Positions 25,330 through 54,341 of a stretch of 64,000 nucleotides of DNA are shown here, piece by piece. Origin of the DNA: Curvibacter sp. CHRR-16 (lineage in GTDB: Bacteria; Pseudomonadota; Gammaproteobacteria; Burkholderiales; Burkholderiaceae_C). The first letter of the stretch is position 1. Every line of letters starts with the position of its first letter. Location: positions 186,001 to 250,000 of the forward strand of contig NZ_JAHCSH010000006.1 in assembly GCF_018474005.1 (NCBI RefSeq), in the 5' to 3' direction. The notes beneath the pieces were generated by a model. It was not told where the DNA came from. It made no database searches and saw only the letters and a program-made list of their open reading frames with translations. Both the position numbers and the translations under genes were made by a program.

Positions 25330-26013
25330 TTATATCCCCCGCCCAAGCACCCGATTGCGAAACTCCGTTGGTAGGGCATCGGCAAGGTCTTTTAAAAACG
25401 CTGCCTGCAAATCATGCCCACGCTTCATATCAGCATCTATGCTGGAAACCCGCACCAACATGCCATCAGGAATCAAACCTTGGAGGCCCAATTCGAATTG
25501 GGCAATCTTTTGATCTAAGCGTGAGACAGTTGCTCGATCACCAACCACCATCCAATAAGTAATGGGTTCATTGCGGTTGCCTTGTTTGGCCATCAGATAC
25601 CGCGTAGGCACAGCTCGATCACTCAATACCAACTGACCGGTGAAATTACTCAATATTTGGAACCCCTGCGCTGGGTAACACACCTCTGGCATGTGAGCCC
25701 GAGTTGCATCAGACTGATCCCCCCCATAGGCGACAGACAACATGATGCGCCGACCATTGCTATTGATATAAGTGCGCGTCAGCGTTTGGTTATAAATGCT
25801 GTTGAGCAATGCCTGCGTTTCAGGCGAAGGCTGCACAATGCGAGCAAACGGATCCACAGTCCAATCGGCAAATGCAGCAGGAAAAATCTTTTCCAAATCT
25901 GGTTTACCCAACACATCGGCCATGTGTTTACTTGGTGTCATGTAGTGAGCCACTGCTGATGCAGTCACCGCTGACAACAACACAGCAACAGCGCGTCTAC
26001 GAGTGGGGCTCAT
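25330..26013 (-). CDS. epsI: Exosortase B-associated protein EpsI
   Basis: 227 residues, one N-terminal membrane segment and a periplasmic domain. The EpsI family accompanies exosortases in EPS/PEP-CTERM loci. Typical parts: the ADWTVD region near residue 50, LSVAYGGDQSDATRAHMPEVCYPAQGF with a conserved Cys, and ITYWMVVGD. Its start overlaps the xrtB stop by four bases (ATGA), so the two are translationally coupled. The exact biochemical role is not established; the Cys and His residues in HMPEVCYPAQG are candidates for an active site. Confidence 0.92.
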   Translation of the reverse strand: MSPTRRRAVAVLLSAVTASAVAHYMTPSKHMADVLGKPDLEKIFPAAFADWTVDPFARIVQPSPETQALLNSIYNQTLTRTYINSNGRRIMLSVAYGGDQSDATRAHMPEVCYPAQGFQILSNFTGQLVLSDRAVPTRYLMAKQGNRNEPITYWMVVGDRATVSRLDQKIAQFELGLQGLIPDGMLVRVSSIDADMKRGHDLQAAFLKDLADALPTEFRNRVLGRGI

Positions 26014-26900
26014 ACTGCTTTCTCCCGAAAAAACAAACCCAAAACGTAGTCAGTACCCAAGACGAGCACCAAGCCCACTGCAAATAGCAACATGCCAGCG
26101 AAGCCATGAATGAAGCCCTGCCCAGCTTCATTGCCCATGTGGTATGTAACGAGCACCAAAATCATGACACGCACCACATTGGCAGCAAATGCTATTGGTA
26201 TCACGGAAATAGCCAGCAGCACATTGCGTTTGACCGATTTGTATTGCATGAGATTCATGTACAGCAAGCCCAGCGCCTCTAAAGTAAACATAGAGTTCAA
26301 GCCCGCACACGCATCTGCCACGAGCAATTGGTACGGCCCCACATTCAAAATGACACCAACACGACTCACCGGATAGCCGATTTGGTACAGCAAATCCGAC
26401 GCCACAATAGAAACGGCCATTTTCAACGGCGCAGTAACAATAGCCACCAATGCTTCAGGGTAAGGTGTCATGAACACCAAGAAGAACAGTGGGAACCACA
26501 CCAAGCGCAGAACCCGCGCCCCCCAGAAAAGCAAAATAAAAGCCAGCACCACACCCACTTGTGAGCCGACCTCGAGCATCAAGAACGACTGTGATTTGCC
26601 TATGATGTAAGCCAACAGACTCAGAGCAAGCACTGCACTACCCCAACCGATTTGGGGTGCTTTGGGCAGAGCAGCTACAGCATGCCGAGCACGAAAAAAC
26701 AGCCACACACTGACTACAAAAATGATGGGGCCATGCCCCTGCTCATCAGTAACCCAAATGGTGTGGGCCAAATTCCAGTAGCTTTGGGCATACATCAATA
26801 CCAGCGCTAGAGCCAAGAAACCCAAAGTCCATGGATCGCTTCCGCTTGGCAACCAACCGCCCCCCCCAGAGGGTGTTATGTCTTTTGCATCTGTAGTCAT
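26010..26900 (-). CDS. xrtB: Exosortase B (XrtB)
   Basis: 296 residues with about eight membrane spans. The transpeptidase-like triad is visible: Cys198 in ADACAGLNS, Arg244 in NVVRVMILVL and His265 in FIHGFAGM. Exosortases cut PEP-CTERM proteins near the Pro-Glu-Pro-like motif at the inner membrane and are thought to transfer them to the envelope or matrix. The expected substrate in this window is the protein at 51906-52601. Coupled to epsI; divergent from the WecG-type gene across about 100 bp with no strong ribosome-binding site visible. Confidence 0.94.
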   Translation of the reverse strand: MTTDAKDITPSGGGGWLPSGSDPWTLGFLALALVLMYAQSYWNLAHTIWVTDEQGHGPIIFVVSVWLFFRARHAVAALPKAPQIGWGSAVLALSLLAYIIGKSQSFLMLEVGSQVGVVLAFILLFWGARVLRLVWFPLFFLVFMTPYPEALVAIVTAPLKMAVSIVASDLLYQIGYPVSRVGVILNVGPYQLLVADACAGLNSMFTLEALGLLYMNLMQYKSVKRNVLLAISVIPIAFAANVVRVMILVLVTYHMGNEAGQGFIHGFAGMLLFAVGLVLVLGTDYVLGLFFREKAV

Positions 26901-29663: not shown

Positions 29664-29731
29664 AATAGACAGCGGGAACAAATGCTACGCCGCCTTGTCA
29701 CCTCTATCGACTGTTTTGCCCAAGACTTTTG

Positions 29732-40751: not shown

Positions 40752-41950
40752 ATTCCGCTCTCATAAAACTTGGCAATGCTTTGGCTTATTTGCGTGAACA
40801 CGGCCCACGGGAATTTGCAGATCGACTGCGATATGGCCCCAAGGCTGATCTCGTATCACGCTATGGCTACGCGCTGTTGGGTAATTTTGAGCAGCACCCA
40901 GATACCGCGGCTGCGCCAGCCAATACCGTGAATTGGTTTCTTTCTGGGTTCTCTGCCACGTCTGGCGGTCACATCAACATCATGCGCTTTGTGCACGCGC
41001 TGGAGGCCCGCGGCTATGAATGCCGCATTGTGATTGCGGAGGGGGAGTGGATGCGCGATGCGAACGCAGTGCGCCAGCAAATGATTCAAGCCTTCGGCCC
41101 TATGCAAGCACAGGTCTACCTGAGTGCGCAAACCGCCCCTCCCGCGTACGCCAGCATTGCGACGGGCTATGACACGGCTTATTACGTGCGTGCATTCACG
41201 TCTACCCACAAGAAATTTTATTTTGTACAAGACTTTGAGCCATGGTTCTCAGCGCCCGGCAGCAACCATACCTTGGCTGAAGCCACATATCGATTTGGTT
41301 TTATTGGGATAACTGCTGGCAACTGGTTGGCGGAGAAACTAGCAGCAGAGTACGGTATGGAAACCCACCCGTTTGGCTTTTCATACGACGAAACTCTGTA
41401 CACAAACCAAGCGCGCACAGAGCATGAAGAGAAACGCGTATTTTTTTATGCACGCCCTGAAACTGAACGCCGGGCATTTGAGCTAGGTGTGCTGGCACTG
41501 CATCTTGTTTACCAACAATGCCCCCAGCTAAAAGTGGTATTTGCTGGGGGTAACTTAGAGCGACAAAAGTTTTCTTTCCCATGTGAGGTGCATGGCAAAT
41601 TAAATGTGCGTGACCTCGGTGCCCTGTACAACAGCTGTGATGCAGCATTGGTGTTGTCGATGACCAATGCCTCACTTTTACCAGTGGAGTTAATGGCCTG
41701 TGGAACACCCGTGGTGAGCAACACGGGGGCGTGGGTTGAATGGCTACTCAATGGTGACAATGCACAACTCGCGTCTGCAGAGCCGCACGCATTGGCCTCT
41801 GCACTGCAGACCGTGCTGAAAGACAGCAACACGTGGCAGCGTCTTCATCGCGCAGGCTTAGCAACAGCGCAGCAAAACTCTTGGGGACAAGAGGCAGACA
41901 AAGTGGCAAATGCATTCAGCAGCCATGGGTGCAAGCCAGCAACTAGCTAG
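40748..41950 (+). CDS. Glycosyltransferase family 4 (WsaF/RgpF-like)
   Basis: 400 residues. The N-terminal half has NWFLSGFSATSGGHINIMRFVHALE and KKFYFVQDFEPWFSAPGSNHTLAEATYRF, resembling WsaF-type rhamnosyltransferases; the donor half has KRVFFYARPETERRAFELGVLAL, LKVVFAGGN and SLLPVELMACGTPVVSNTGAWVEWLL with the E-containing donor motif. Last gene of the plus-strand block, ending eight bases inside the convergent O-antigen-ligase-like gene. Sugar specificity (rhamnose) is only a family-level guess. Confidence 0.82.
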   Translation: MNSALIKLGNALAYLREHGPREFADRLRYGPKADLVSRYGYALLGNFEQHPDTAAAPANTVNWFLSGFSATSGGHINIMRFVHALEARGYECRIVIAEGEWMRDANAVRQQMIQAFGPMQAQVYLSAQTAPPAYASIATGYDTAYYVRAFTSTHKKFYFVQDFEPWFSAPGSNHTLAEATYRFGFIGITAGNWLAEKLAAEYGMETHPFGFSYDETLYTNQARTEHEEKRVFFYARPETERRAFELGVLALHLVYQQCPQLKVVFAGGNLERQKFSFPCEVHGKLNVRDLGALYNSCDAALVLSMTNASLLPVELMACGTPVVSNTGAWVEWLLNGDNAQLASAEPHALASALQTVLKDSNTWQRLHRAGLATAQQNSWGQEADKVANAFSSHGCKPATS

Positions 41951-43433
41951 TAAGTATCCGTGCTTTGGTGGCTTGAGCAATGGTTGCAGCCGCCAGACCA
42001 CCGAGTACCCAATACATAACCGGTATGAAGGTTATGCTGCTCACGGTGTAAATGGTAACCATAATGCAGAAAAATATGGCCATTAAATTTGCAGCCAAAG
42101 AAGAATACGCATTATTTCGAGAAAAAACAACTTTAGCCAAATCAACTAAAACCACAACAAAATAGCCAACAAACAAACAAAGCCCTATCAAACCACCAGA
42201 CAGCGTAACTGCAACATACGAATTAACAATATCAATAATGCCATTGGCTCTTAGCACCTGCAAGTCATCTGCCTCCATATAATCATTAGAGCCAAACCAC
42301 AGGCTTCTTTGGATCACAGGGAGTGCATTTTTCAGCAAATCCTCCCGATAGGTTACGGACATTGGATCAACACTGCCAATTAAAGGCAACTTATCCAACA
42401 ACTTCTGTCCTATTGGCGTCAACAAAAGAACAAAAATAGCCAACACTACAAATGGCAGTTTTTTTAATGCGTATTTTCTGAAATTCTCAGAAAGAAAAAA
42501 GAAAGCCAGCAAACCAGCAAAACATCCGACCCATGGACCACGAGAAACCGGGGCGTACAAACCCAGCAAAAACAAACCCAGCACAACCATTTGAATTTTT
42601 GTATTTTTAATGGATTCCGCAATATAAAACTGCAAAATGAAAGCCACAGCCATCAAAAAACCCAACACTATCGGCTGACCAGTACTAGCCAAAGCACGCA
42701 GGGAATCTTCCCGTCGCAAATAACCACCATAGCCCCACGCATCAACACCCAAGGCATAAGAAACACGCGAATACAAAAGCCAATGCTTGGCATACTCAAA
42801 AAAACCTATCAAACCCAGAACAACCAAACCAAGCAGGATCATTTTCAAGACATCCTCGATTTGACTCCTGTCACGCAAACACCTGCTAAAGACATAGTAG
42901 GGAATGACAATATCGACACACACCATAAAAAGCATGCGTATTGCTCCGGTAAAAGTCGTTTCACCGAACAATGGAACGGTCGCATACAAAACATAAAGCA
43001 GTAAGAATCTATCAATCCAAACAACTGCAGTGCTCTTTAATGGAGTTGACTCCTTGTATGCAGCATAAGCCATTGGCACAAAAACAACCAACACCATTAG
43101 CCGAAAATAATTTAAATCGAAAAAATAATTAACCAAGCCAAAACCAGGAATTTGCTCAGAAAACAGTGGTACGGCAAAGAGCACACATGCAGCCAGTGCG
43201 AGCGGGTTTTCGTCTTTCTTTCGAGCCCGCCAAAGAACATACGCCGTCAAAAGAACAAAAAGCCAAAAATTATGTGCAAGAAAGGCTGCACTGGTAATCA
43301 TGTACCAAGCGCGCACGCGCACAGGAAGCACCTGCCTGTTCAGCCCAAGCTCTGGTGCATACTTGTTGGCAAAGTAAAAAACAAAAGTGGCGATAAGCAT
43401 CACCACTATGTAAGCACGAAGTATTTCTGGCAT
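41943..43433 (-). CDS. O-antigen ligase/polymerase-like membrane protein
   Basis: 496 residues with at least ten hydrophobic spans and a large hydrophilic loop near residues 350-400 (LLDKLPLIGSVDPMSVTYREDLLKNALPVIQRS). The Wzy_C/WaaL family pattern VSRGPWVGCFAGLLAFF lies just before it, and FGSNDYMEA-like residues follow. It likely polymerises repeat units or transfers the glycan in the periplasm. Base composition is low in GC, as for many Wzy genes. It ends the minus-strand eps export operon: eleven bases after epsG. Confidence 0.82.
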   Translation of the reverse strand: MPEILRAYIVVMLIATFVFYFANKYAPELGLNRQVLPVRVRAWYMITSAAFLAHNFWLFVLLTAYVLWRARKKDENPLALAACVLFAVPLFSEQIPGFGLVNYFFDLNYFRLMVLVVFVPMAYAAYKESTPLKSTAVVWIDRFLLLYVLYATVPLFGETTFTGAIRMLFMVCVDIVIPYYVFSRCLRDRSQIEDVLKMILLGLVVLGLIGFFEYAKHWLLYSRVSYALGVDAWGYGGYLRREDSLRALASTGQPIVLGFLMAVAFILQFYIAESIKNTKIQMVVLGLFLLGLYAPVSRGPWVGCFAGLLAFFFLSENFRKYALKKLPFVVLAIFVLLLTPIGQKLLDKLPLIGSVDPMSVTYREDLLKNALPVIQRSLWFGSNDYMEADDLQVLRANGIIDIVNSYVAVTLSGGLIGLCLFVGYFVVVLVDLAKVVFSRNNAYSSLAANLMAIFFCIMVTIYTVSSITFIPVMYWVLGGLAAATIAQATKARILTS

Positions 43434-43444
43434 TGCTTGTTTAG

Positions 43445-44344
43445 TTATCCGCCAACATCAATTAATGGTGGATCATTGAGTACGGAGCCCACAATATTGA
43501 TTTGGCTTTGCTTTAGCTCCGCAACCAAACTATTGAAATCAGCAAGCTTGGTCTCGTTGGCGCGAGCAACCAGCATAGCGGCCCCTGCTTTGGCAGCCAC
43601 AATCATGGCGTCAGACCCTGTTGACGCAGATGGCGTGTCAATCAAGACAATGTCGTAACTTTTCCCTGCCCATTCCAATAACTGCTGCATGCTATCGCGA
43701 TTGAGCAATTCAAGCGGATTGGGTGGTACGGGCCCCGCTGGGATAACGTCTAAACCCGGCATAAAACTAATCGCTTTAAGCACCTGACTCACCTCAGCTC
43801 TTTCTGCCAATAGACTAGAAAAGCCCAAAGTGTTGTCCAGTTTAAAAAGGCTGTGCTGACGCGGATGGCGCATGTCGGCATCGATCAGCAGAGTTCTTTC
43901 CCCCATCTGTGCAAAGACGATTGCCAAATTGGCGGCTAGATAACTCCCCCCCTCTGCGCGTCCAGCACCGACTACTGCGAGTTGGGTGTTGGTGGCTTGA
44001 TCGAACCAGCGCAGTTTGAGTTGACTGCGAATCGCCCGCAGCTGATCCACCTCGGCACTGAAAGGCGCATATGCAGCCACTAGATCGGAGTGGGTTATGC
44101 GGCCGCTGCTGCGTGGCAAGTAGGCGTAGTCGTACTGGTATGACAGTGCATAACGGATATCGGCTTCACTGATGAGTCCAAGCTGTATTGCAGCCTCGCC
44201 GAAGCGAATTTTTTTAGCCCGTTGCAGCTCGGCTACCCGCTGCGCATCTGCTTTAGAAATGATGCCTGCGTCGACCAGAATGTCGCCCAATGGACGCTTG
44301 GTACGGTTTTCAACAGCAACCATGTCTTTTTCTGTTGTAGTCAC
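43445..44344 (-). CDS. epsG: Chain-length determinant ATPase/kinase EpsG
   Basis: 299 residues. N-terminal MshEN-like region (about 15-75: LGDILVDAGIISKADAQRV) precedes a bacterial tyrosine-kinase-type P-loop domain. The Walker A region reads GAGRAEGGSYLAANLA (126-141), so the usual GKT/S lysine is replaced, while Walker A' TLLIDADMRHP (151-161) and Walker B DIVLIDTP are intact. There is no C-terminal tyrosine cluster. It should partner EpsF in controlling polymer length at the inner membrane. The family from XrtB loci commonly shows Gly-Glu-Gly-Arg-type loops, so activity may still be possible. Overlaps epsF by four bases. Confidence 0.9.
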   Translation of the reverse strand: MTTTEKDMVAVENRTKRPLGDILVDAGIISKADAQRVAELQRAKKIRFGEAAIQLGLISEADIRYALSYQYDYAYLPRSSGRITHSDLVAAYAPFSAEVDQLRAIRSQLKLRWFDQATNTQLAVVGAGRAEGGSYLAANLAIVFAQMGERTLLIDADMRHPRQHSLFKLDNTLGFSSLLAERAEVSQVLKAISFMPGLDVIPAGPVPPNPLELLNRDSMQQLLEWAGKSYDIVLIDTPSASTGSDAMIVAAKAGAAMLVARANETKLADFNSLVAELKQSQINIVGSVLNDPPLIDVGG

Positions 44345-45774
44345 ATCAAATCTCCCATACGACTGGTTACTTCAAAGTCTTTGCGCTGTTTGCGTTGGGT
44401 AAAAAACTTCCGCAATAGCTGCAACTGCTTGCGCAAACCATAACCGGCACCTTGGCGGTCAATTACGCCCAGTACCGGCACTCCCTCAATTGCAATATCG
44501 CCGACAACACGTACTTTGCGGTTCAGCATTTCAAGACCTAAAGCGACAGCAAATGCTGCCCCCAAAGCTGCTGCCAAACTCGTTGCTAAATACTTGGGAC
44601 GATTGGGACGAGATGGCTCGGTCGGTTCTACTGCCGGACTCAAAATGGAAACGTTGGCTTGGTCCGCTTGCTTCTCCAAATTGAGTTGATTACTGCGCGA
44701 AAGAACAGAGTCATACATGCGCTTGGCAGCCTCTACGTCTTGCGTGAGCAGGGCAACTTGGTCGCGCTCCTCTTTCATAGAAAGTACACGCTCTTTTTGC
44801 GCTGCGATGGCCGCTTTCAATTCTGCTTCACGTAACGAGGCTGTGGTTTTGGCAACGCGTGTTACCCCAGATGCGCGAGCTATTTCACTGGCCAGTTGGT
44901 TTTTAAGTTCTGTCAACTGACTCTCAAGCTGCTGGCGCTGTGGGTGATTGGGGCCCAAGTTGACGCTCAAGGCGGCAAGAGAATTCTCTGTTTTATTGAT
45001 ATCGGCCTTCAACCCCTGAACCAAAGCACTGGTTTGCACATCAGGCGACAGGTCTGTACCCGATGTTTTTTGGCGGCTGGAAATGTCCATTTTCTCGCCC
45101 TGCAATGCAGCCAACTGGGCATTCAATGCATCCAGTCGCTGGCTTTCTGCGTCCACACGTTGATCCGATCCCGAGACGATATTCTTATCGCGCTGATATT
45201 CGGTCAAGCGCGTCTGTGCTTTATCAACCGCATCGCGCAAATTTTTGAGGCGATCCTCGAACCAATCAGCGTACTGGCGTACGGGCTCCACACGCAGGTC
45301 AATGACCAAATCCACGTAGGACTGGGCATACGTATTCACCACAGCAGTAGCAAACTTAGGATCTGCAGCCTCAAAGGTAAGGCGTATGACGTTACTGTTT
45401 CGCAGGGGCTCTACCGTCAGGCCACGACGCAGCAAGTTGGCGTAGTAATTCTCCAAGGGCGTGAGGCCTTTGGTCGCCTCTTTCCACTGGTCAACCAATG
45501 CAGGAGTCTCGGCAACTCGTAAACGCTTCACCACACCAATGGCGACACGCTCGCTCTGCAAAATAGAAACTTGGGTGGAAATATAGTTGCTAGCGATAGT
45601 GACTGAGCCAGCGATAGGATCGATGCGCGTATCGAGCAGAAGGTCTGTACTGGCTTGATAAGTTTTGGGGACAGTGAATGTGTAGGCGACACCACCGAGC
45701 AAAGCCACGACAAATGCCAACGCAGATAAATAGCGATGGGCAAAGAGTATCAGCAGAATTTGTTTGGGATTCAT
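44341..45774 (-). CDS. epsF: Polysaccharide co-polymerase EpsF (Wzz-like)
   Basis: 477 residues. Wzz-type organisation: N-terminal membrane span (LFAHRYLSALAFVVALLGGVAYTF), a periplasmic domain with DLLLDTRIDP and TFEAADPKFATAVVNTYAQSYVDL, a long coiled coil (about 160-370), and a second membrane span near residue 420 (YLATSLAAALGAAFAVALGLEML). Sets chain length with EpsG. Overlaps epsG by four bases and starts 12 bases after epsE. Confidence 0.93.
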   Translation of the reverse strand: MNPKQILLILFAHRYLSALAFVVALLGGVAYTFTVPKTYQASTDLLLDTRIDPIAGSVTIASNYISTQVSILQSERVAIGVVKRLRVAETPALVDQWKEATKGLTPLENYYANLLRRGLTVEPLRNSNVIRLTFEAADPKFATAVVNTYAQSYVDLVIDLRVEPVRQYADWFEDRLKNLRDAVDKAQTRLTEYQRDKNIVSGSDQRVDAESQRLDALNAQLAALQGEKMDISSRQKTSGTDLSPDVQTSALVQGLKADINKTENSLAALSVNLGPNHPQRQQLESQLTELKNQLASEIARASGVTRVAKTTASLREAELKAAIAAQKERVLSMKEERDQVALLTQDVEAAKRMYDSVLSRSNQLNLEKQADQANVSILSPAVEPTEPSRPNRPKYLATSLAAALGAAFAVALGLEMLNRKVRVVGDIAIEGVPVLGVIDRQGAGYGLRKQLQLLRKFFTQRKQRKDFEVTSRMGDLM

Positions 45775-45786
45775 GGCTGCCTTAAC

Positions 45787-46608
45787 TTAGAAAAGACTTT
45801 CACGCACGTAAATAACGTCGTCTGGACGCACCATGTCACTGAGCTCTGGAGACATTTCGCGGACTTTGCCATCTGCATCTTGACGGAATAGCTTGAGGCG
45901 CTTTTCGGTGCCACGCTGTGTAGGCCCCCCAGCTGTAACCAAGGCCTGAACAAAGGTCATATTGCGCTCAATGCGGTATGAACCAGGGCGTTGTGCTTCA
46001 CCGTAAACATAAAACACCGGTGCACGATGCACATAAACGACCTCACCGCCTTGTATTGGAATGTCGCTGGCAGCCTTACCATCCAAATAAAGTGACGCGA
46101 CATCTATCTCTTGGCGCCATGGCTTGCCGCCACGCTGGCCTGTGATGATGACCGTGTCCGAACCTGTGGGCAAGATCCCCCCCGCCAATGCCAACACGTC
46201 AGACAGACGTGCATTGTTGTACTCCAACGGGAACTGTCCAGGTCGCCCCACCGCACCAAGAATAGACACCACTTTGCGACGCGCTTGGGTAACAGTGATA
46301 TTGACTTGTGGACTGCGCAGAAAGCCCCCTGATTTCAGGGATTTGACCAACACCGCCTCTGCCTCAGGAATGCTCAGTCCAGCCAAACGCAGCGTGCCAA
46401 CCAAGGGGTAGCTCACATCGCCAGACTCCAAGATACGCGTTTCAATGCTGAGATCCGGACTCTGGTACACCTGCACCTTGATTACATCACCAGGGCCCAG
46501 CTTGTCTTCAAAGGTTTTGTCTTGCGCGAAAGCCAAACCAGCAGATGCCACTATGCAGCAAGCACCCAGCCAACGCGCGCATTTAGTCATGAGTTGTGTA
46601 TGCATCAT
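45787..46608 (-). CDS. epsE: Polysaccharide export protein EpsE (Wza-like)
   Basis: 273 residues with a Sec signal peptide ending near AFA/QDK. Poly_export and SLBB domains: KLGPGDVIKVQVYQSPDLSIETRILESGDVSYPLVGTL, then VSILGAVGRPGQFPL and FYVYGEAQRPGSYRIERNMT. No lipobox Cys is apparent after the signal peptide, unlike Wza, so anchoring differs or relies on EpsL. Forms part of the outer-membrane export route. Overlaps epsD by four bases. Confidence 0.94.
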   Translation of the reverse strand: MMHTQLMTKCARWLGACCIVASAGLAFAQDKTFEDKLGPGDVIKVQVYQSPDLSIETRILESGDVSYPLVGTLRLAGLSIPEAEAVLVKSLKSGGFLRSPQVNITVTQARRKVVSILGAVGRPGQFPLEYNNARLSDVLALAGGILPTGSDTVIITGQRGGKPWRQEIDVASLYLDGKAASDIPIQGGEVVYVHRAPVFYVYGEAQRPGSYRIERNMTFVQALVTAGGPTQRGTEKRLKLFRQDADGKVREMSPELSDMVRPDDVIYVRESLF

Positions 46609-47708
46609 TTCAATCCCTTAAGACCTTTTTCAAGATTCAGTGGCTGCGCTGTTGCGCCTGCATCTTCTTTTCCAGACTTGGAGCGCGCTTCTGCTCTGGC
46701 TTTTGCACGTTCCTCTTCTGCAGCCTGAGCAGCCGCTTGCTCTTGGGCTTTTTGCTTGGCAAATGCTTCCGCATCTTCTTTGGCTTTTTGCTCTTGCTGC
46801 GCCTTGGCTTGTTGAGCAGCCTTAAGCTCTTCTTCCGCTTTGGCCTTTAATGCGGCTTCACCACCTTTGAATTCACCAAAATACTCAATTTTGGCTTTCG
46901 CCTTTACATCGGCCTTAAATTGCTTGATAGCAGCAACACCACGCTGATTAAAGAGATACGTTTTAATAAGTGGCAGTGCCTGTGCTTCACTAACAGGCTC
47001 AGATTTAGACGCGTTCACACGCATGATGACGTAGCTACTGCCTTCGCTATGAAGTGCCATTTGTCCATCTTTGAGCATGGCCAGTTTGGGCAAAATCTCC
47101 AGTGGCAGCTGCTCTGCACCACGCACTCCAGAGTTGGCGGCAAACTTGATGTCGTGCTGCTTGAGCCAAGTCGATATATCTTCGGCAGACTTTGCGTTAT
47201 TGACAGCTACCCTCAATGCACTCTCATCTATATCGGCCTTAGGAAAAGTAATTTCTTGCAAGTTATAAATGCGGCGTTCTGCAAAAAGAGCCGGATTATC
47301 TGCGTAATATTTTTTGGCTTCGTCATCAGTGGGCTGGGCTTGCGCCGATGCAATTTGCTCCATAGCGGCCCTAGCCAAAATTTCGCGTTTTGCGGCCTCA
47401 ATTGCTGCAACAACCTCCGGAGAACGATCCAATTTTTTATCGACAGCTGCATTAATAGCGATTTGCTGATCAACAAGCGCAGATAATATTTCTGCCTTTA
47501 CTGCCGTCAATCGTTCCGGAGCAACACCAGAAGCCTTGCTCAAAATAGCATTCATTTGGTGCACGGTAATTTCTTGGCCATCTACCGAAGCAATTACTTG
47601 CGTAGCGCCGCTGTCGACTTTTTTTCCACATGCAACCAGTGCACTTGCCAACACACTGGTGACTGCTATCGCAACGAGCGTGCGATGCATAGTTTTTAGT
47701 TTGTTCAT
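46605..47708 (-). CDS. epsD: EpsD, lipoprotein with SurA/parvulin-like region
   Basis: 367 residues. Lipobox LVACGKK shows a lipid-anchored envelope protein. Residues about 35-235 follow the SurA_N/rotamase layout (VASVDGQEITVHQMNAIL, AEILSALVDQQIAINAAVDKK, and YNLQEITFPKADIDE), but the isomerase core is weak. From about residue 260 there is a long Lys/Glu/Ala/Gln helical tail ending in GKEDAGATAQPLNLEKGLKGLK. It may assist outer-membrane insertion of EpsL or EpsE. AGGGA lies upstream of ATG 47708. Confidence 0.9.
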   Translation of the reverse strand: MNKLKTMHRTLVAIAVTSVLASALVACGKKVDSGATQVIASVDGQEITVHQMNAILSKASGVAPERLTAVKAEILSALVDQQIAINAAVDKKLDRSPEVVAAIEAAKREILARAAMEQIASAQAQPTDDEAKKYYADNPALFAERRIYNLQEITFPKADIDESALRVAVNNAKSAEDISTWLKQHDIKFAANSGVRGAEQLPLEILPKLAMLKDGQMALHSEGSSYVIMRVNASKSEPVSEAQALPLIKTYLFNQRGVAAIKQFKADVKAKAKIEYFGEFKGGEAALKAKAEEELKAAQQAKAQQEQKAKEDAEAFAKQKAQEQAAAQAAEEERAKARAEARSKSGKEDAGATAQPLNLEKGLKGLK

Positions 47709-47736: not shown

Positions 47737-48894
47737 TCAATAGAAATAAATATTGGCTGTCAGATCAATTTGCTCTGCATGGTAGTCAACCCCTGCAACG
47801 TTGCTTGATCTACTAGAGTCGGTGTAGGACAAAACAAAATTCGCCATCTTTCTTGGCTGCCAGTTATATGACAGCGTAATGTCCTGGGTAGTATCTTGTC
47901 TGGTGGATGAAATACCATTTGGACTGCCCTTGTCGGCGCGCACTGTATTTTTGTATGTCAGGCCTAAGCCGCTTTTGCTTGAGATATGCCACATGGGAGC
48001 CAATACAAACACATCGTTTTGTGTATAGGTCGTCCCAGTTGTTTGATAACCAACCGCATCACGCTGCCACGAGCTTGCCATCGACAGCTTGCCAGAGATG
48101 CCCCAGGTCAGGCCAATACTGGCACTGGGGCCGTCAAAATTGAATTGAGGCGTCGAATCAAAACGTTGCCTTGTTTGCCCCAATTTCCCCGTTAGCCAAC
48201 TTCTCCCCCCGACTGCGATGCGCGTAGACACTGTTGCGGCATCGTAAGAAAAGTCGCTATTGGAAACCCCTTTGCCCGATTGAAGACCCACATCAATCGA
48301 ATTACTTGACCCTGAAACAAACCGCGCACCCAACTGCGCACCAGTTGAACGGCTGTCCGTTTGACCCACGACATTTTGTTCGTTCGTTGTACGGCTATTC
48401 ACAAGCCCAGAATAGAACTGCCAATAAGAGCCCAAATCGTATGCCAACTGAAACGACGAGGACTGCTTCGTATTTTTGTTGCGCTGAGACTGGTTGCTGC
48501 TATCGGAAGGTGTATTGAGCGTCTCGCTCTGCTGCGAACCCAATGAGCCATGCCAACGCGGTGTCAGAGTCCACAACCATGACAATTGGTAATTCTGCGC
48601 TGTGTAATCAAAGTTGCGATTGTTTTGATGCTGGCTAGCAGCAAGGCTTGCATCAAGGTCAAACGTTTGCTGGCTTACTGGCAGCGAGACTTTCACCCCC
48701 ACTGTCTCAGTGGTAGTTTGCTCGGATTTGGCGTTGGCACCGCTGGTGCGCAAGAAGTTGTTGGTGCTGGAGGAGCTCAGCCCGGCACGATAAGTGATGA
48801 CATCACTGCTTTGTGCGTGTGCGCAGGCAACCAAGGCAACCCAAGATAGGCATGCCAAGCGCGCAGGAGAAACACATAGGAACATGCCAATCAA
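47737..48894 (-). CDS. epsL: Outer-membrane beta-barrel protein EpsL
   Basis: 385 residues. Signal peptide ending near AHA/QSS, then many alternating-hydrophobicity strands, and a C-terminal aromatic (ends NIYFY), all typical of a beta-barrel porin-like protein. The DSSNQSQRNKNTKQSS-type Ser/Asn-rich loops are surface-like. In XrtB loci this protein is thought to form the outer-membrane channel for the polysaccharide, together with EpsE. Overlaps the cNMP-binding-domain gene upstream by four bases. Confidence 0.9.
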   Translation of the reverse strand: MIGMFLCVSPARLACLSWVALVACAHAQSSDVITYRAGLSSSSTNNFLRTSGANAKSEQTTTETVGVKVSLPVSQQTFDLDASLAASQHQNNRNFDYTAQNYQLSWLWTLTPRWHGSLGSQQSETLNTPSDSSNQSQRNKNTKQSSSFQLAYDLGSYWQFYSGLVNSRTTNEQNVVGQTDSRSTGAQLGARFVSGSSNSIDVGLQSGKGVSNSDFSYDAATVSTRIAVGGRSWLTGKLGQTRQRFDSTPQFNFDGPSASIGLTWGISGKLSMASSWQRDAVGYQTTGTTYTQNDVFVLAPMWHISSKSGLGLTYKNTVRADKGSPNGISSTRQDTTQDITLSYNWQPRKMANFVLSYTDSSRSSNVAGVDYHAEQIDLTANIYFY

Positions 48895-49412
48895 ACCAAG
48901 GATGTGAGCGCCGCCATGTTGGGCGAGGTAGCCACCTGACGCAATTTGGCGGTGGCTGAACTCAGCAACATAAGCATTAATTTGTTGCCAAGGCGAGGAT
49001 GATCCACGAGCAGTGCATTGAAACTATCCATGGACAACACCGCAAAATCACTGGGCTCCAGAGTCGTGCAAGTTGCAATGCGCGCTTTGCCGTCAATGAA
49101 TGACAGTTCACCCAAAATATCACCCGGATGGATTGTGCTGTGCAATGTTTTGCCATCCATTTGGCGCTCAATAACGGCACTACCAGTTACCAAGAACGCC
49201 ATGAATTGACCTTCATCGCCTGCTCGCAAAACGGCTGCTTGGCGCGGCAAACCATAGACCTCTAAGTAATTGCTCAGCAGAGCGGCTTCCGGCTCACTGA
49301 AATTATCGAATAGATGCTTGGGTTTGACAGCATCCATGAACTCATTCACAAAGTCGCTAGCCGTCCCCAGTGGCTCGGAGGCTGGTTGCAAATCCGCAAA
49401 ATTGGTTGTCAT
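48891..49412 (-). CDS. Cyclic-nucleotide-binding-domain protein without DNA-binding domain
   Basis: 173 residues. One Crp-type cNMP fold (about 35-150): AVLRAGDEGQFMAFLVTGSAVIERQ, HPGDILGELSFIDGKARIATCTTLEPSDFAVLSMDSF. The GELSF segment is the phosphate-binding cassette region, but there is no helix-turn-helix. It could sense cAMP, c-di-GMP or nothing and regulate export post-translationally, perhaps through EpsL, with which its end is coupled. It is the first gene of the export operon and has its own promoter-like element. Function unproven. Confidence 0.82.
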   Translation of the reverse strand: MTTNFADLQPASEPLGTASDFVNEFMDAVKPKHLFDNFSEPEAALLSNYLEVYGLPRQAAVLRAGDEGQFMAFLVTGSAVIERQMDGKTLHSTIHPGDILGELSFIDGKARIATCTTLEPSDFAVLSMDSFNALLVDHPRLGNKLMLMLLSSATAKLRQVATSPNMAALTSLV

Positions 49413-49455: not shown

Positions 49456-49484
49456 ATTATCTGGATGTGCTGTGACATCAGCAA
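49456..49484 (-). promoter_or_regulatory. Promoter before the cNMP-domain/eps export operon
   Basis: On the minus strand, TTGCTG (-35, 49479-49484), a 17-bp spacer and GATAAT (-10, 49456-49461) form a good sigma-70 pair. The start would fall near 49449, about 37 bases before ATG 49412. The eps palindrome abuts its upstream side. Confidence 0.65.
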
Positions 49485-49500
49485 GAGTCCGATTGGACTA
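49479..49500 (-). promoter_or_regulatory. Predicted activator site (eps palindrome B)
   Basis: AGTCCGATTGGACT, one base off a perfect palindrome, begins one base before the -35 hexamer TTGCTG on the minus strand. Its centre falls about 43 bases upstream of the predicted start, the standard distance for a class II activator. A 22-bp segment matches 20 of 22 bases at 52689-52710. Confidence 0.6.
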
Positions 49501-49521
49501 TTCATAGAGTCCACATGAAAA

Positions 49522-50937
49522 TCAGTACGCCTGCCTATCGTTCACAACCAATTTGATGGTTCTAAAAATAATATATAAATCCAAGCGCAAAGACCAATTT
49601 CGCAAGTAATCCAAATCAAAATCAATGCGTCCCTGCATTTTATCCAAGGTCTCAGTTTCCCCTCTGTACCCATTCACTTGAGCCCACCCAGTGATACCGG
49701 GCTTCACTTTATGACGCACCATGTAGCCCTTAATCAATTTGCGGTACAACTCATTATGAGCAACTGCATGGGGGCGAGGCCCCACAATACTCATACGGCC
49801 TTGCAAAACATTGATGAATTGGGGTAACTCATCAATGGATGTTTTCCGCAAAATACGCCCAAGAGGCGTTATTCGAGAGTCATTTTTGGTCGCTTGTTGA
49901 ATCTTTGCACCATCCTCAACAACCTTCATGGAACGGAATTTATATACCAATATTTCCTTGCCATCCAAACCATAACGACGCTGCTTAAAAAGTATAGGAC
50001 CAGGAGAAGTCCATTTTACTGCTACAGCAACCACCAACAAAATAGGAGATATCAAAAACAAAATAATTAACGACAAGACAATATCGCTAATCCTCTTTAT
50101 TACTCCACTAGCACCTGTAAAAGGGGTTTCACACACCGATATAACAGGCATCCCGCATACGGTGCCGGAACGCCCCTGAATAAGATCCGTCACAAACATG
50201 TCGGGAACAAAGAAAATAGATGCTGTTGTGTCCTTGAGTTCATCCAGCACTTGCAATATGCGAGGTTGTGAGGCCATGGGCAGCGACAAATAAATGATCT
50301 GGACATCATTGGCACGCACATACGGAGACAAGTCAGCCATTTTTCCCAGCAACTGATAGTGCTGATTTTTGGGCAAACGGGTCGGTGTCCGATCATCAAA
50401 AAAACCCGCGAATTCCATTCGAAGGTAAGGACTGCTAGACAAGCGCTCAGCCAATGCCAAGCCTTGCTCGTTCATACCCACCACGATGGCTTTCTTGACC
50501 GGCCCCTCCAGTGCCAACAAGAAAGGAGCGACAAAGCGCAGCGTCAAATGCCCCAGTAACAGGAGCGCAGGCGTAGACAGCAACCACACCAGCATGGCAT
50601 TGCGAGAAAACTCTTTGTGGTAGCCAGTTCCAAGCCCCGCCAACAGCAAAAGACCGGCTGCCCAAACCCAAGAGAGCCAGACATCCACCAACAACTGCCT
50701 CCATGACGAGTTGAGCCGCGGCTCACCTGGAAAAGTGATCGAAAACACAATGACCGACAAAATCAGGTAAGCGCCATTGACACCCTTGTCAAAAAACCAT
50801 GCGCAAACCCACAACAAAACCACCCACGTCAGGGGTTCCAAACTGGCCTCAATGGCACTTAAAAACGTATCGCGTCCAACGGAGTCCGACTCATTGCGAG
50901 CCGACAGCATTGCTGCTGATTTGTTTCGTTCAACCAT
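49522..50937 (-). CDS. Undecaprenyl-phosphate sugar phosphotransferase (EPS initiation)
   Basis: 471 residues from ATG 50937. Four or five N-terminal membrane helices, a Rossmann-like segment AIVVGMNEQGLALAERLSS, a final membrane helix (IVLSLIILFLISPILLVV), and the bacterial sugar transferase domain: WTSPGPILFKQRRYGLDGKEILVYKFRSMKV, LRKTSIDELPQFINVLQGRMSIVGPRPHA, and KPGITGWAQVNGYRGET, the full PHPT signature. It transfers a glucose-1-phosphate-type sugar onto undecaprenyl phosphate. The start lies eight bases inside the epsA coding region, so they are coupled. No terminator separates it from the next operon. Confidence 0.93.
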   Translation of the reverse strand: MVERNKSAAMLSARNESDSVGRDTFLSAIEASLEPLTWVVLLWVCAWFFDKGVNGAYLILSVIVFSITFPGEPRLNSSWRQLLVDVWLSWVWAAGLLLLAGLGTGYHKEFSRNAMLVWLLSTPALLLLGHLTLRFVAPFLLALEGPVKKAIVVGMNEQGLALAERLSSSPYLRMEFAGFFDDRTPTRLPKNQHYQLLGKMADLSPYVRANDVQIIYLSLPMASQPRILQVLDELKDTTASIFFVPDMFVTDLIQGRSGTVCGMPVISVCETPFTGASGVIKRISDIVLSLIILFLISPILLVVAVAVKWTSPGPILFKQRRYGLDGKEILVYKFRSMKVVEDGAKIQQATKNDSRITPLGRILRKTSIDELPQFINVLQGRMSIVGPRPHAVAHNELYRKLIKGYMVRHKVKPGITGWAQVNGYRGETETLDKMQGRIDFDLDYLRNWSLRLDLYIIFRTIKLVVNDRQAY

Positions 50938-51754
50938 GTCGTGATGCTGTCTCGCTGCTGGGTGTGTACTTTTCGCGGTATGCAGCCACGGCCTGGGCTC
51001 TATTGAGCACATCGAGTTTTTTAAAAATACGCTGCATGTGATTTTTAACCGTGAACGCGCTAACGTTGAGGATACTGCCAATTTCAGAATTGGTCTTACC
51101 GAGCCCCACCCAGTGCATGATTTCTGCTTCGCGATCACTCAAAACACCACCGTCAGCATCGTGCGCCACCTCAACTGGCGCAGGTTTGCTCGGATGCTGA
51201 TGGGAAAGCAGCTCTACCTGCCGCATGGCAGCATCAATGTAGGGCAACAGCATGCGAATAGTTTGCTTATCGCTGTGCCGACGCTTGGGGTAGCGGCTGA
51301 AAAACATGTACAAACAGTCGTGACGACCGCGTTGATCGTTGATGCCGTGGACCAGCGCTGAATTCATCGTTGTCATGGCATCGGCAATGGAGCCTGGCTC
51401 CATTAGCCCCTCCCATGTCACCCCCTCGTGACCGACATTGAGAAAAAATGGCTCTCGATCCTGCATTGCCCATTGCTCGAACATGCCCTTGAGCAAGGGT
51501 GCAAGTGACTTTGCCGTAGCGTTTTCCGTTCGAACGCCTGGCATGGCAGAAATGATGTCGTAATAAATGAGGCCTAGATGAAAGTCCCCCCAAGCAGCAA
51601 TCAAAATTTCGTGCGTGAGGTAATGCTGCAAGCTGCCTTGCAACCAAGTCATCAAATCCAAATGGTTCCGCACCGCGAGAACTTCATTCAGCAGGGCATT
51701 AAAGCGCTGAAAATCCTCTTGGCTTGGCTGCGATTCATCCCGCTTGAATAGCAT
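50930..51754 (-). CDS. epsA: LuxR-type regulator EpsA of the XrtB/EPS locus
   Basis: 274 residues. The N-terminal ~190 residues form an EpsA-type sensory domain with no membrane segment (MTWLQGSLQHYLTHEILIAAWGDFHLGLIYYDIIS). The C-terminal GerE helix-turn-helix (205-260) reads LSDREAEIMHWVGLGKTNSEIGSILNVSAFTVKNHMQRIFKKL. Such regulators sit at XrtB loci and are the best candidate for the two matched palindromes at 49479-49500 and 52689-52710. No phosphoreceiver domain, so the input signal is unknown. Weak ribosome-binding site. Confidence 0.9.
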   Translation of the reverse strand: MLFKRDESQPSQEDFQRFNALLNEVLAVRNHLDLMTWLQGSLQHYLTHEILIAAWGDFHLGLIYYDIISAMPGVRTENATAKSLAPLLKGMFEQWAMQDREPFFLNVGHEGVTWEGLMEPGSIADAMTTMNSALVHGINDQRGRHDCLYMFFSRYPKRRHSDKQTIRMLLPYIDAAMRQVELLSHQHPSKPAPVEVAHDADGGVLSDREAEIMHWVGLGKTNSEIGSILNVSAFTVKNHMQRIFKKLDVLNRAQAVAAYREKYTPSSETASRHG

Positions 51755-51792
51755 GGTTTTTAATAATAATAGTTGGTGTGTGACAGGGCTCT

Positions 51793-51822
51793 ATATTAAG
51801 GGGAAGAGCTTCTCCTTACCAA
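51793..51822 (-). promoter_or_regulatory. Predicted epsA promoter
   Basis: Minus-strand TTGGTA (51817-51822), 18-bp spacer, TAATAT (51793-51798). The start would be near 51786, leaving a short leader before ATG 51754. No eps palindrome is found here. Confidence 0.45.
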
Positions 51823-51855
51823 GCGCAACGCATGGTTAAACGATGTCACCAAAGC

Positions 51856-51882
51856 AAAAAAAGGCGTACCAAGGTACGCCTT
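51856..51882 (-). terminator. Intrinsic terminator after the PEP-CTERM gene
   Basis: On the minus strand, AAGGCGTACC (complement of 51873-51882) pairs with GGTACGCCTT around a two-base apex and is followed by seven T residues (complement of 51856-51862). Confidence 0.88.
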
Positions 51883-51905
51883 CCAATCTTCGCGAAAAGA
51901 TTCAA

Positions 51906-52601
51906 TTAAGCAGATTTTTTGCGGCGACGCACGATCGCACCAACCATCCCCAAACCGGCCAACATCATGGCGTAAGTTTCAGCTTCTGGAACTGCTGTAA
52001 CACTCATCAAAGTGTAGTCAGACTGGCTGGAGCAAGTATTGCCAGTTTTGCAAGTACCGTTAACCGCGGAGAACACCAAGTTTGTGATGGCCTTGCTGCC
52101 AAAAGGGTTAGAAATTTTCCAAACACCCGCTGTATTGCCTGTTGCAGGAGAGAGGTTGGTCACAGAGCCAGAACCAGTCCACGAAGCGTTGATGATGTCA
52201 GCTGCAGTCAGGTAGTAAGTCGCAGAAGTACCGTCCAAGAAAGTGGCTGTGATCTTTGCCTTTTCCATCACATCGGAGAATTCTGGGCCATCAAACAACA
52301 AGCCGATCACAAAAGATTCAATGTACTGAGCGCCGCCTTTGAATGCAGCTACGATGCTTTGGCCCACATCAATTTCAGCACCCGAATTGCCACCAGTAAC
52401 CCCAACGCCCGTTTCACTAGCCCAAGTCTTCTTGGCAAAAGTACCAGCGTCTTCGCCATTCCAAGCGGTGTATGTAGCCAAGCTGGTGTCATACGTATGC
52501 ACGCCAGTAGCGAAAGATGAACCATAGTCAGTAGCCGCATAAGCACTACCAATGGACAAAGCAGCCAGTGCCGCCGCAACAAAAGTTTTAGATATCTTCA
52601 T
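51906..52601 (-). CDS. PEP-CTERM domain protein
   Basis: 231 residues. Sec signal peptide (cleavage about AYA/ATD), a secreted beta-rich Gly/Thr/Ser/Ala domain, and a C-terminal sorting tail (about 204-231) starting VPEAETYA, then a hydrophobic helix and RRRKKSA. The tail is the exosortase substrate signature, with PEA instead of the classical PEP. XrtB is the only exosortase in the window. The protein is probably released at or linked to the EPS matrix. Transcribed alone with its own terminator and an upstream palindrome that matches the export operon. Confidence 0.88.
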   Translation of the reverse strand: MKISKTFVAAALAALSIGSAYAATDYGSSFATGVHTYDTSLATYTAWNGEDAGTFAKKTWASETGVGVTGGNSGAEIDVGQSIVAAFKGGAQYIESFVIGLLFDGPEFSDVMEKAKITATFLDGTSATYYLTAADIINASWTGSGSVTNLSPATGNTAGVWKISNPFGSKAITNLVFSAVNGTCKTGNTCSSQSDYTLMSVTAVPEAETYAMMLAGLGMVGAIVRRRKKSA

Positions 52602-52665
52602 ATATTCCCTGATCGGTTGATGGTTTCTAAAAACAGTCGCAGAGCTTCTGCTGACCTTGGACGCA

Positions 52666-52694
52666 AGTCTCTTCGTGATGCCCTATGGCAGCAA
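52666..52694 (-). promoter_or_regulatory. Promoter-like element of the PEP-CTERM gene
   Basis: Minus-strand TTGCTG (-35, 52689-52694) with a weak -10 GAGACT (52666-52671) at a 17-bp spacing. The poor -10 fits an activator-dependent promoter. The leader would be about 58 bases. Confidence 0.45.
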
Positions 52695-52710
52695 TAGTCC
52701 GATCGGACTA
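52689..52710 (-). promoter_or_regulatory. Predicted activator site (eps palindrome A)
   Basis: TAGTCCGATCGGACTA (52695-52710) is a perfect 16-bp palindrome placed directly before the -35 hexamer, the same arrangement as at 49479-49500. Confidence 0.6.
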
Positions 52711-52793
52711 ATTGCCAGCGCGGCCATAAAATTCCTACTTTGGCAATGGGGCAATCTCGGACTCAAGTTCTCAATAATCCGCACAATCGACCC

Positions 52794-54341
52794 ATGTTTG
52801 CCCCCCATCCGCGCCATGCGCCCCACCCTCCCCTGCCCACAGCATCCAGCCCTTGGGCTTGGGATGCACCTGCACACTGCTACCCCAGCCTGGGCGATGC
52901 GTTTGTTGCACCAACCGAACCCAGCCCACTGCCCAGCCCCTGCTGGGTTGCTCACAGCGAGACAGCCGCCCAACTACTGGGGCTACCGACCGCTTGGCAT
53001 AGCGATGGTCTGCTGCAAGGACTGTCCGGCAACGCCGTGCTAGAAGGCAGCCAGCCATACGCCACGGTGTACAGCGGACACCAATTTGGTATGTGGGCAG
53101 GCCAACTGGGCGATGGCCGCGCATTGCTGCTGGGCCAAACACAAGGCTGGGAGGTGCAGCTCAAAGGGGCTGGTATGACACCGTTTTCGCGCATGGGCGA
53201 TGGGCGCGCCGTTTTGCGCAGCAGCATCCGCGAATTTCTGGCCAGTGAGGCCATGCATGCACTCGGTGTGCCCACCACACGGGCGTTGTGCATCACAGCA
53301 TCCCCCCAGTTGGTGCGCCGCGAAGAGGCGGAACCCGCCGCCGTGGTCACCCGCTTGGCACCCAGCTTTGTGCGCTTTGGTCATTTCGAGCATTTCAGCG
53401 CCAGCGGTCAAATCGATGCGCTGCGCGCTCTGGCTGATTGGGTCATAGAGCACCACTACCCAGCATGCGCCAGCCAACCCAGCCGCTACGCAGCCTTGCT
53501 GGCTAACGTTGTAGAACGCAGCGCCCAGCTGGTGGCGCACTGGCAAGCGCTGGGCTTTTGCCATGGCGTGCTCAACACCGACAACATGAGCATCTTGGGG
53601 CTGACCTTGGACTATGGCCCCTTCCAGTTCATGGATGGGTTTGACCCGCAGCACATCTGCAACCACAGCGACGAGCGAGGCCGCTACGCTTTTGGCAACC
53701 AACCCAACATCGTCTACTGGAACCTGCTCTGCCTAGGACAAGCCCTGCTTGCCTTGCTGGCGCAAGAATGCAGCGAACAAGGCCATAGCGACGCCAACAA
53801 AGCCGCCACCGATGCTGCCTTGGCCGCCATAGACAAGTTCAAACCGGCTTGGGCACAAGCGTGGCAAATCCAGCTCTGCGCCAAACTGGGCCGCGCCCCC
53901 AGCCCCGCAGCCCAAGCGGTGGCGGAAAAAGCACTGCCCCTGCTGGCTGCAGAACGGGTGGACTACACCCTTTTTTGGCGCCGCTTGGCACGCTGGGCCG
54001 CTGGCCTGGCCCCGCGTGACAGTGTGCAAGACCTGTTTCTGGACAGAACTGGCATAGACGCATGGTTGCTATCATTTTCAGAGCTAGACCAGCTTACTGG
54101 GTGTGCCCTACAGCCCGATTTGATACTGAACAGCAACCCCTGCTTGGTGCTGCGCAACTACATGGCCCAAGAAGCCATCAGTGCTGCCGAGCAAGGCGAC
54201 TACAGCGTTGTGCAGCAATTGCACCAAGCCCTGAACACGCCTTATGCTGACATTGGCCCCGACGCCCCGGCGCACCTGCAGCGCTGGGCCGGATTTCCGC
54301 CCGACTGGGCGCAACACCTGCACCTGAGTTGTAGTTCATGA
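52794..54341 (+). CDS. selO: Protein adenylyltransferase SelO (YdiU)
   Basis: 515 residues from ATG 52794; ATG 52746 is in frame but neither start has a clear ribosome-binding site. SelO pseudokinase-fold enzyme that AMPylates proteins on Ser/Thr/Tyr. Conserved: [22 protein letters not shown] (around 90-110), [26 protein letters not shown] and [25 protein letters not shown], which contains catalytic Asn/Asp residues. The classical C-terminal selenocysteine/Cys is replaced by a tail ending LHLSCSS with a Cys close to the terminus. Overlaps msrB by four bases. Confidence 0.92.

Follow-up and report, generated by a model that had tools for sequence, protein, structure and literature searches.

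A palindromic site upstream of an eps export operon and PEP-CTERM genes in Curvibacter sp. CHRR-16, with EpsA as its candidate regulator

The two palindromes and the genes around them

The window considered here is a stretch of 64,000 nucleotides of Curvibacter sp. CHRR-16 (contig NZ_JAHCSH010000006.1, positions 186,001 to 250,000), in which two closely similar palindromes lie upstream of an eps polysaccharide export operon and of a gene for a PEP-CTERM protein, an exosortase substrate. It is likely that both are operators of one regulon, with EpsA, a LuxR/GerE-type protein, as the predicted binder and activator. Read along the minus strand, the PEP-CTERM gene is followed by a hairpin with a T-run, epsA, the undecaprenyl-phosphate glucose phosphotransferase gene, the second palindromic site and the eps row, which consists of genes for a cNMP-binding protein, epsL, epsD, epsE, epsF, epsG and a Wzy_C gene (Table 1). 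This order agrees with a preliminary description made from the letters of the window alone, in which epsA, encoding a GerE-type regulator, was placed between the two palindromes. The hairpin and T-run suggest that the PEP-CTERM gene is probably transcribed alone.

Table 1. Positions of the sites, promoter elements and genes within the window
Feature	Position	Strand	Remarks
22-bp stretch, eps side	49479-49500		read as CAGCAAGAGTCCGATTGGACTA
22-bp stretch, PEP-CTERM side	52689-52710		read as CAGCAATAGTCCGATCGGACTA
Palindromic site, eps operon	49485..49500	-	TAGTCCAATCGGACTC on minus strand; similar sites before homologous eps-operon first genes
-35-like TTGCTG, eps operon	49479..49484	-	abuts palindrome
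-10-like GATAAT, eps operon	49456..49461	-	17 bp after TTGCTG; spacing preferred across regulon
Perfect 16-bp palindrome, PEP-CTERM gene	52695..52710	-	TAGTCCGATCGGACTA; 93 nt from start codon
-35-like TTGCTG, PEP-CTERM gene	52689..52694	-	abuts palindrome
-10-like GAGACT, PEP-CTERM gene	52666..52671	-	weak; 17 bp after TTGCTG; matches regulon pattern xAxxxT
PEP-CTERM protein gene, 231 aa	51906..52601	-	PF07589 30.5 bits (cut-off 20.7); NF038126 50.4 bits (cut-off 50)
Hairpin then T-run, 3' of PEP-CTERM gene	51859..51884	-	
epsA, LuxR/GerE-type regulator, proposed site binder	50930..51754	-	TIGR03020 239.3 bits (cut-off 170); LuxR-receptor-like model
Undecaprenyl-phosphate glucose phosphotransferase gene	49522..50937	-	TIGR03023; downstream of epsA
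eps operon first gene, cNMP-binding domain protein	48891..49412	-	no DNA-binding domain by Pfam
epsL-like outer membrane protein gene	47737..48894	-	TIGR03014 218 bits, under cut-off 275
epsD, peptidyl-prolyl isomerase	46605..47708	-	TIGR02925
epsE, polysaccharide export protein	45787..46608	-	TIGR03028
epsF-like chain-length determinant	44341..45774	-	TIGR03017 398 bits, under cut-off 423
epsG, tyrosine kinase	43445..44344	-	TIGR03029, NF053729, both above cut-off
Wzy_C/O-antigen-ligase-like gene, end of row	41943..43433	-	PF04932
xrtB, exosortase B	26010..26900	-	TIGR03113 335 bits (cut-off 275); same polysaccharide region
epsI, B-type exosortase-associated protein	25330..26013	-	NF045609; same polysaccharide region

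The two 22-bp stretches are identical at 20 of 22 positions, and on the minus strand TTGCTG stands immediately 3' of both palindromes, as had been described. At the eps operon GATAAT lies exactly 17 bp past TTGCTG, and at the PEP-CTERM gene a weaker -10, GAGACT, lies at the equal distance, so that the promoter geometry first read from the window is borne out. The 16-bp core had been taken to be a perfect palindrome in one copy and one base off in the other; the PEP-CTERM copy is indeed perfect, but in the eps copy two bases differ and two of the eight symmetric pairs are broken. With up to three mismatches allowed, the perfect 16-mer matches the window twice against 0.03 matches expected. A generic sigma-70 scan reported neither of the two window promoters, because both deviate from consensus, and no match to a sigma-54 -24/-12 promoter (TGGCAC-N5-TTGCW, up to two mismatches) was found at positions 52602-52800.

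A chance likeness of the two palindromes, or a recent promoter duplication, with no common function has nothing in its favour except that one window holds few sites. None of 100 shuffles of the window reached two matches, the flanks are unlike outside the palindrome, -35 and -10, and the same arrangement stands before PEP-CTERM genes in many genomes; the co-distribution with EpsA in the genus and in a family sample, described below, already contradicts chance or duplication, which is regarded as exceedingly improbable.

In addition, the polysaccharide region contains a gene for a 638-aa PKD-domain protein (27765-29681), possibly a surface protein, and the EpsG kinase carries at its N terminus an MshE-type cyclic di-GMP motif (NF053729, above cut-off).

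Targets and promoter geometry of the site

A search of the entire genome (3.45 Mb) for the full 16-mer, with three mismatches allowed at most, finds four sites, two of them in the window. The pattern of its 12 fixed bases, TAGTCCNNNNGGACTA (TAGTCC-N4-GGACTA), gives five genome sites with up to one mismatch, and the reversed control pattern gives four; being palindromic, sites appear on both strands in listings. The gene of an adhesin-like PEP-CTERM protein starts 65 nt downstream of the third genome site, and another PEP-CTERM gene starts 69 nt downstream of the fourth, while the fifth, found with the 12-base pattern, has no evident target. Random occurrence across the genome, which would speak against a regulon, is therefore not seen, as four of the five sites precede the eps operon or a PEP-CTERM gene (three being PEP-CTERM genes). 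The Pfam PEP-CTERM model finds four genes above the cut-off in this genome and two weaker matches, and the exact site stands before three of the four. The remaining PEP-CTERM gene lies outside the window, directly before a second exosortase gene (G000, contig C3:474589-475511; L103, L107). That exosortase gene is within 200 bases, and the site-less gene probably encodes its dedicated substrate and likely has its own control.

The first survey of relatives comprised 41 genomes (this genome, 24 genus-mates and 16 of the order), and the exact site was present in 11 of them. Eight genus genomes hold 25 exact sites, of which 19 precede PEP-CTERM genes. Of the others, one lies at an eps operon, ahead of its first gene (L074), one has a histidine kinase gene downstream (L075), and no clear target is seen for four (L063, L065, L068, L072). 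A later set of 40 stretches from 13 further genus genomes, taken from the genus-wide scan described below after the motif and promoter pattern had been fixed, contains 42 exact sites, none of which is in loci L001-L187 and 12 of which also appear in the scan of one genome per species. Directly downstream of 32 of these 42 sites is a PEP-CTERM gene (11 of 12 sites in one complete genome), and the same is true of 23 of the 30 sites that are new to every earlier locus.

Targets of the ten later sites that lack a recognised PEP-CTERM gene were named from protein ends, not from family searches. One site stands before a protein reading like that of the eps-operon first gene (L335), another has an export-protein-like gene on one side and a PEP-CTERM-like gene on the other (L333), and others precede a glycosyltransferase-like gene (L334), a gene truncated by the contig end (L338) and one shared unidentified gene (L324, L340); the site of L315 has no clear target. 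Three further sites (L326:2528, L339:2545, L344:2566) lie between a galE-like gene and epsA, the epsA match starting about 270-335 nt from the site on its other side, and control of galE or of epsA itself is possible there. In three genomes a histidine kinase gene is found beside the site (L075:2437, L077:2248, L111:2548), in two cases divergent from a PEP-CTERM gene.

The site is also kept at orthologous eps loci, being present before close homologues of the eps-operon first gene in six other loci. Sites matching 10 to 12 of the 12 bases lie about 69-91 nt before the start of cNMP-binding gene homologues in L275, L222, L074, L301, L287 and L254, and one matching 10 of 12 lies at about 156 nt in L009. 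Among more distant homologues, that of L049 has a perfect site, which is assigned to a PEP-CTERM gene on the opposite strand, and five others have site scores of 7 to 9.

Beyond the genus, a scan for the dyad with TTG, one genome per species, gave at least 118 stretches, 80 of them among the matches listed; most records among the matches listed are Betaproteobacteria (Rhodoferax, Rhodocyclaceae, Methylophilaceae, Nitrosomonadales). Here too the site is found before PEP-CTERM genes. Calls of such genes were made with a text pattern, and a loose version of it (38 of 88 sites) was discarded since it overcalled and some of its calls were wrong. The stricter version places a PEP-CTERM gene on the other side of the site in nine of 76 proteobacterial cases, in addition to those downstream; it also hit a frame in Frankia and, within these PEP-rich loci, 271 of 3450 positions taken at random, and several of its misses are at contig ends. 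For the later set of 42 sites, protein ends were therefore read as well. EpsA was sought in 50 of these genomes (53 chosen, one locus each) and matched at E <=1e-20 in 38, of which 34 are above the curated cut-off. The 12 genomes without EpsA include Microbacterium, Frankia, Actinomadura, Methanobrevibacter, Prochlorococcus, Schlesneria and a Bacillota bacterium, in which the sites are probably chance matches.

The geometry of TTG, 17 bp and -10 recurs over the promoters of the regulon. TTG counts from L188-L305, which were fetched with TTG in the pattern, are left out as evidence. When 27 oriented sites, some of them near copies of one another, are aligned on the dyad, the T, T and G of positions 17-19 occur in 17, 17 and 18 of them; within the hexamer 40-45, position 41 is A in 23 and position 45 is T in 20; and the central four bases are R-NN-Y in all 27. 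Among 32 later PEP-CTERM promoters TTG follows the dyad in 20, and xAxxxT lies at the 17-bp spacing exactly in 21, whereas no other offset between 8 and 49 has it in more than nine. In 74 PEP-CTERM promoters with near copies removed, A41 is present in 48 and T45 in 49, against a background of about a quarter. In these alignments the dyad TAGTCC-R-NN-Y-GGACTA is thus found to hold a preferred place in promoters of predicted sigma-70 type, before a TTG-like -35.

If the -10 is correctly assigned, transcription would start near position 52, which puts the centre of the dyad near -43, the position of class II activation by LuxR. The dyad, at about -42 to -43 beside the -35, has the placing expected of class II promoters, as judged from the -10 and not from a mapped start. 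A dyad that abuts the -35 hexamer would also suit a repressor, and EpsA might bind but cover the -35, holding the eps operon and the PEP-CTERM genes silent until a signal releases the protein. This is considered unlikely, since the -35 is poor past TTG (full ACA follows in three of the 32 later promoters) and the -10 is often weak, which suits an activator-dependent promoter, and since the centre near -43 coincides with the LuxR position and tandem dyad copies occur at some promoters. The latter are seen in G018, where several imperfect tandem copies lie upstream of PEP-CTERM genes (L070:2263-3700).

EpsA as the candidate regulator

EpsA scores above the curated cut-off of its family model (Table 1), with xrtB in the same genome and locus, and its C terminus is a GerE helix-turn-helix (PF00196, 62.1 bits). 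It is the sole protein with a DNA-binding domain among the proteins of the eps region that were scanned; the cNMP-binding protein was considered as site binder and rejected, as Pfam finds no DNA-binding domain in it. The EpsA model (predicted local distance difference test score, pLDDT, 86) has a two-domain LuxR-type receptor fold with a predicted receptor-like N-terminal domain. Its best fold matches are 2q0o (a quorum-sensing anti-activation complex), CviR, QscR and RhlR, at modest whole-chain TM-scores of 0.26-0.42 by query length, and the profile alignment of EpsA spans most of CviR. None of the CviR residues that contact acyl-homoserine lactone (AHL), namely Y80, W84, Y88, D97, P98 and W111, is conserved in the EpsA profile consensus in a HMMER alignment that is weak there. 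EpsA is therefore classed by fold and not as an AHL receptor, and by modelled fold and site position it is probably a LuxR-type regulator that reads a signal other than AHL.

The distribution of the site follows that of EpsA. Of the 103 genus genomes scanned (EpsA at E <=1e-25), 31 have the exact site and 34 have EpsA, 28 of these above the curated cut-off; 30 have both (Fisher p 1.6e-20), and the exact site is lacking in four of the 34. With the curated cut-off, the site is present in 26 of 28 EpsA genomes versus five of 75 others. A sample of 299 genomes of the family holds EpsA in 67, XrtB in 95 and the site in 19, with EpsA in 14 of the 19 site-positive genomes versus 53 of the 280 site-negative ones (p 1.1e-6). 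The expectation that the site would be confined to genomes with epsA is accordingly nearly exact in the genus (30 of 31) but less strict in the family sample. Among the family genomes it is carried by 13 of 47 with both EpsA and XrtB, none of 48 with XrtB alone, one of 20 with EpsA alone and five of 184 with neither. Within XrtB-positive genomes the comparison of those with and without EpsA (13/47 versus 0/48) gives p 4e-5, and the reversed control pattern is found in 18 of 47 with EpsA and 15 of 48 without. Where EpsA and XrtB part, the site accompanies EpsA, which indicates that it tracks the regulator and not the exosortase.

Loci of the EpsA clade are also enriched in the dyad. At 11 or more of 12 bases, the TAGTCC dyad is present in eight of 28 loci, which none of 179 permuted arms matches, and at 10 of 12 bases it is present in 15 of 28, equalled by five of the 179. 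A de novo count of inverted repeats (74 of 85 EpsA-family loci, spacers 0-10) gave mostly GC-rich repeats and was superseded by this permuted-arm test. Moreover, among the loci that could be read (all but one), TAGCCC-N4-GGGCTA is found within 4 kb in three of the four EpsA-like paralogue loci whose recognition helix has Q or E instead of H, versus one of 71 loci with H (p 2e-4). In L060, L061 and L062, which are EpsA-like with E or Q in the helix, this palindrome lies 50-200 nt from the gene (in L061 also 1.5 kb further). The covariation of helix residue and half-site suggests that the putative reader of these dyads is the EpsA family itself.

Taken together, comparisons of sequence indicate that the regulon, in its sites, targets, geometry and co-distribution, is present in this genome and in many relatives, and that it probably belongs to EpsA. 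The initial suggestion of co-regulated polysaccharide export and exosortase substrate is likewise supported by the genome-wide, orthologue and co-distribution checks. In the proposed mechanism, EpsA, encoded between the two sites, would bind the palindrome as a dimer, setting two GerE helix-turn-helix units on half-sites approximately one DNA turn apart. At the weak -35, bound EpsA would then contact RNA polymerase, activating a sigma-70 promoter, such that exosortase substrates and the polysaccharide exporter may be produced together, with surface proteins matched to the polysaccharide.

A number of observations weigh against this interpretation. Both the binding of EpsA and its effect on transcription are predictions, and the position of the site also fits a repressor. 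Ten of the 42 later sites are without a recognised PEP-CTERM gene downstream, and in the wider scan the stricter text pattern calls such a gene downstream of just 40 of 76 proteobacterial sites. One genus genome has the site and no EpsA (G399, 82% complete), as do five of the 19 site-positive genomes of the family sample (G150, G168, G180, G203, G250) and five of the 50 genomes checked beyond the genus that are Betaproteobacteria-like (G340, G351, G355, G361, G364). Of the five in the family sample, two have centre-odd single matches only and G203 is 70% complete, which does not account for all five; G003 has sites and just a below-cut-off EpsA paralogue. Conversely, the exact site is absent from 53 of the 67 EpsA-positive genomes of the family sample, and there either the site must drift or EpsA must act elsewhere. 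Loci of the EpsA-like clade show no enrichment of TAGTCC dyads (two of 46 loci, equalled by 25 of 179 permuted arms). The covariation with the helix is based on four loci, one of which fails: L184 (EpsA-like, Q) lacks an exact TAGCCC palindrome within 4 kb, where contig ends restrict the view, and shows no other convincing palindrome within 1.5 kb. Finally, the reversed control is itself weakly tied to EpsA in the genus (11/34 versus 11/69, p 0.05), so that genome size or kinship contributes in part, and all of the Fisher p values are too small because the genomes are related by descent.

The genomes with a site and no detected EpsA, together with the histidine kinase genes beside sites (identified by Pfam in L075 and L111 and by near-identical protein ends in L077), would be in keeping with a real regulon that has another binder, such as a response regulator that works with the histidine kinase whose gene bears a site, EpsA merely travelling with the cluster. 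Such a binder is considered quite unlikely, as the site accompanies EpsA where EpsA and XrtB part, no further DNA-binding protein is found among the scanned proteins of the region, and the covariation of helix residue and half-site at EpsA-like loci implicates the EpsA family. As a separate observation, the site of G203 (L115:2640) is flanked by a diguanylate cyclase (GGDEF) gene and by the gene of a response regulator.

With EpsA as the favoured binder, a more far-reaching picture can be put forward tentatively, although as a whole it is less likely than not. Exosortase-B surface programmes across Betaproteobacteria might have in EpsA their missing master regulator. As a LuxR-fold solo, EpsA would respond to a non-AHL signal and switch on export and the PEP-CTERM set; at the same time, the regulons of paralogues might be insulated by a single H to Q/E change in the helix, accompanying the change of half-site from TAGTCC to TAGCCC.

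Relation to known systems and significance

The predicted system resembles LuxR, TraR and CviR at lux-box promoters in the fold of EpsA, the palindromic site and the centre near -43, a likeness judged by fold and site position. It differs in that EpsA is without the AHL contacts of CviR and in that it is predicted to act on an export operon and on the genes of exosortase substrates. VpsT and CsgD, regulators of biofilm matrix, similarly place a GerE helix-turn-helix over matrix genes and are among the weaker matches to EpsA. Their matches are limited to the helix-turn-helix, however, and the N-terminal domain of EpsA is predicted to be of LuxR-receptor type, whereas that of VpsT and CsgD is receiver-like.

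The closest precedent is the PrsK/PrsR/sigma-54 system. In Haft et al. 2006 (PMC1569441), a 17-nt motif with a sigma-54 promoter is described before 99 of 167 proteobacterial PEP-CTERM genes and matched to PrsK, PrsR and PrsT, and further regulatory proteins and DNA motifs for PEP-CTERM genes are expected. One PEP-CTERM gene has been shown to be RpoN-dependent (PMC9850573), and the passages of PMC4195743 that were consulted, on an eps cluster, name no such regulator. In both systems a conserved DNA site precedes many PEP-CTERM genes, the phylogenetic profile of the site matches that of a regulator, and there is a link to exopolysaccharide loci. PrsK/PrsR/sigma-54 employs an NtrC-like response regulator and a 17-nt motif ending in TTTACA, followed after about 63 nt by a -24/-12 promoter; here, in contrast, a 16-bp palindrome abuts a -35/-10 promoter and the regulator is of LuxR type and associated with exosortase B. 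No description of the site or of an EpsA regulon was found in titles and the beginnings of abstracts among the matches listed, in a literature from which subscription journals were mostly absent.

Judged from sequence, the site and its predicted regulator would be a second control system for PEP-CTERM genes, distinct from PrsK/PrsR/sigma-54, and a candidate answer, in the XrtB/EpsA branch, for PEP-CTERM genes without a sigma-54 site. With a probable regulator named and targets listed, the switch of exosortase substrates becomes testable, and the site provides a DNA handle for unrecognised exosortase substrates and surface genes. It also supports the idea that PEP-CTERM proteins are produced to accompany polysaccharide.

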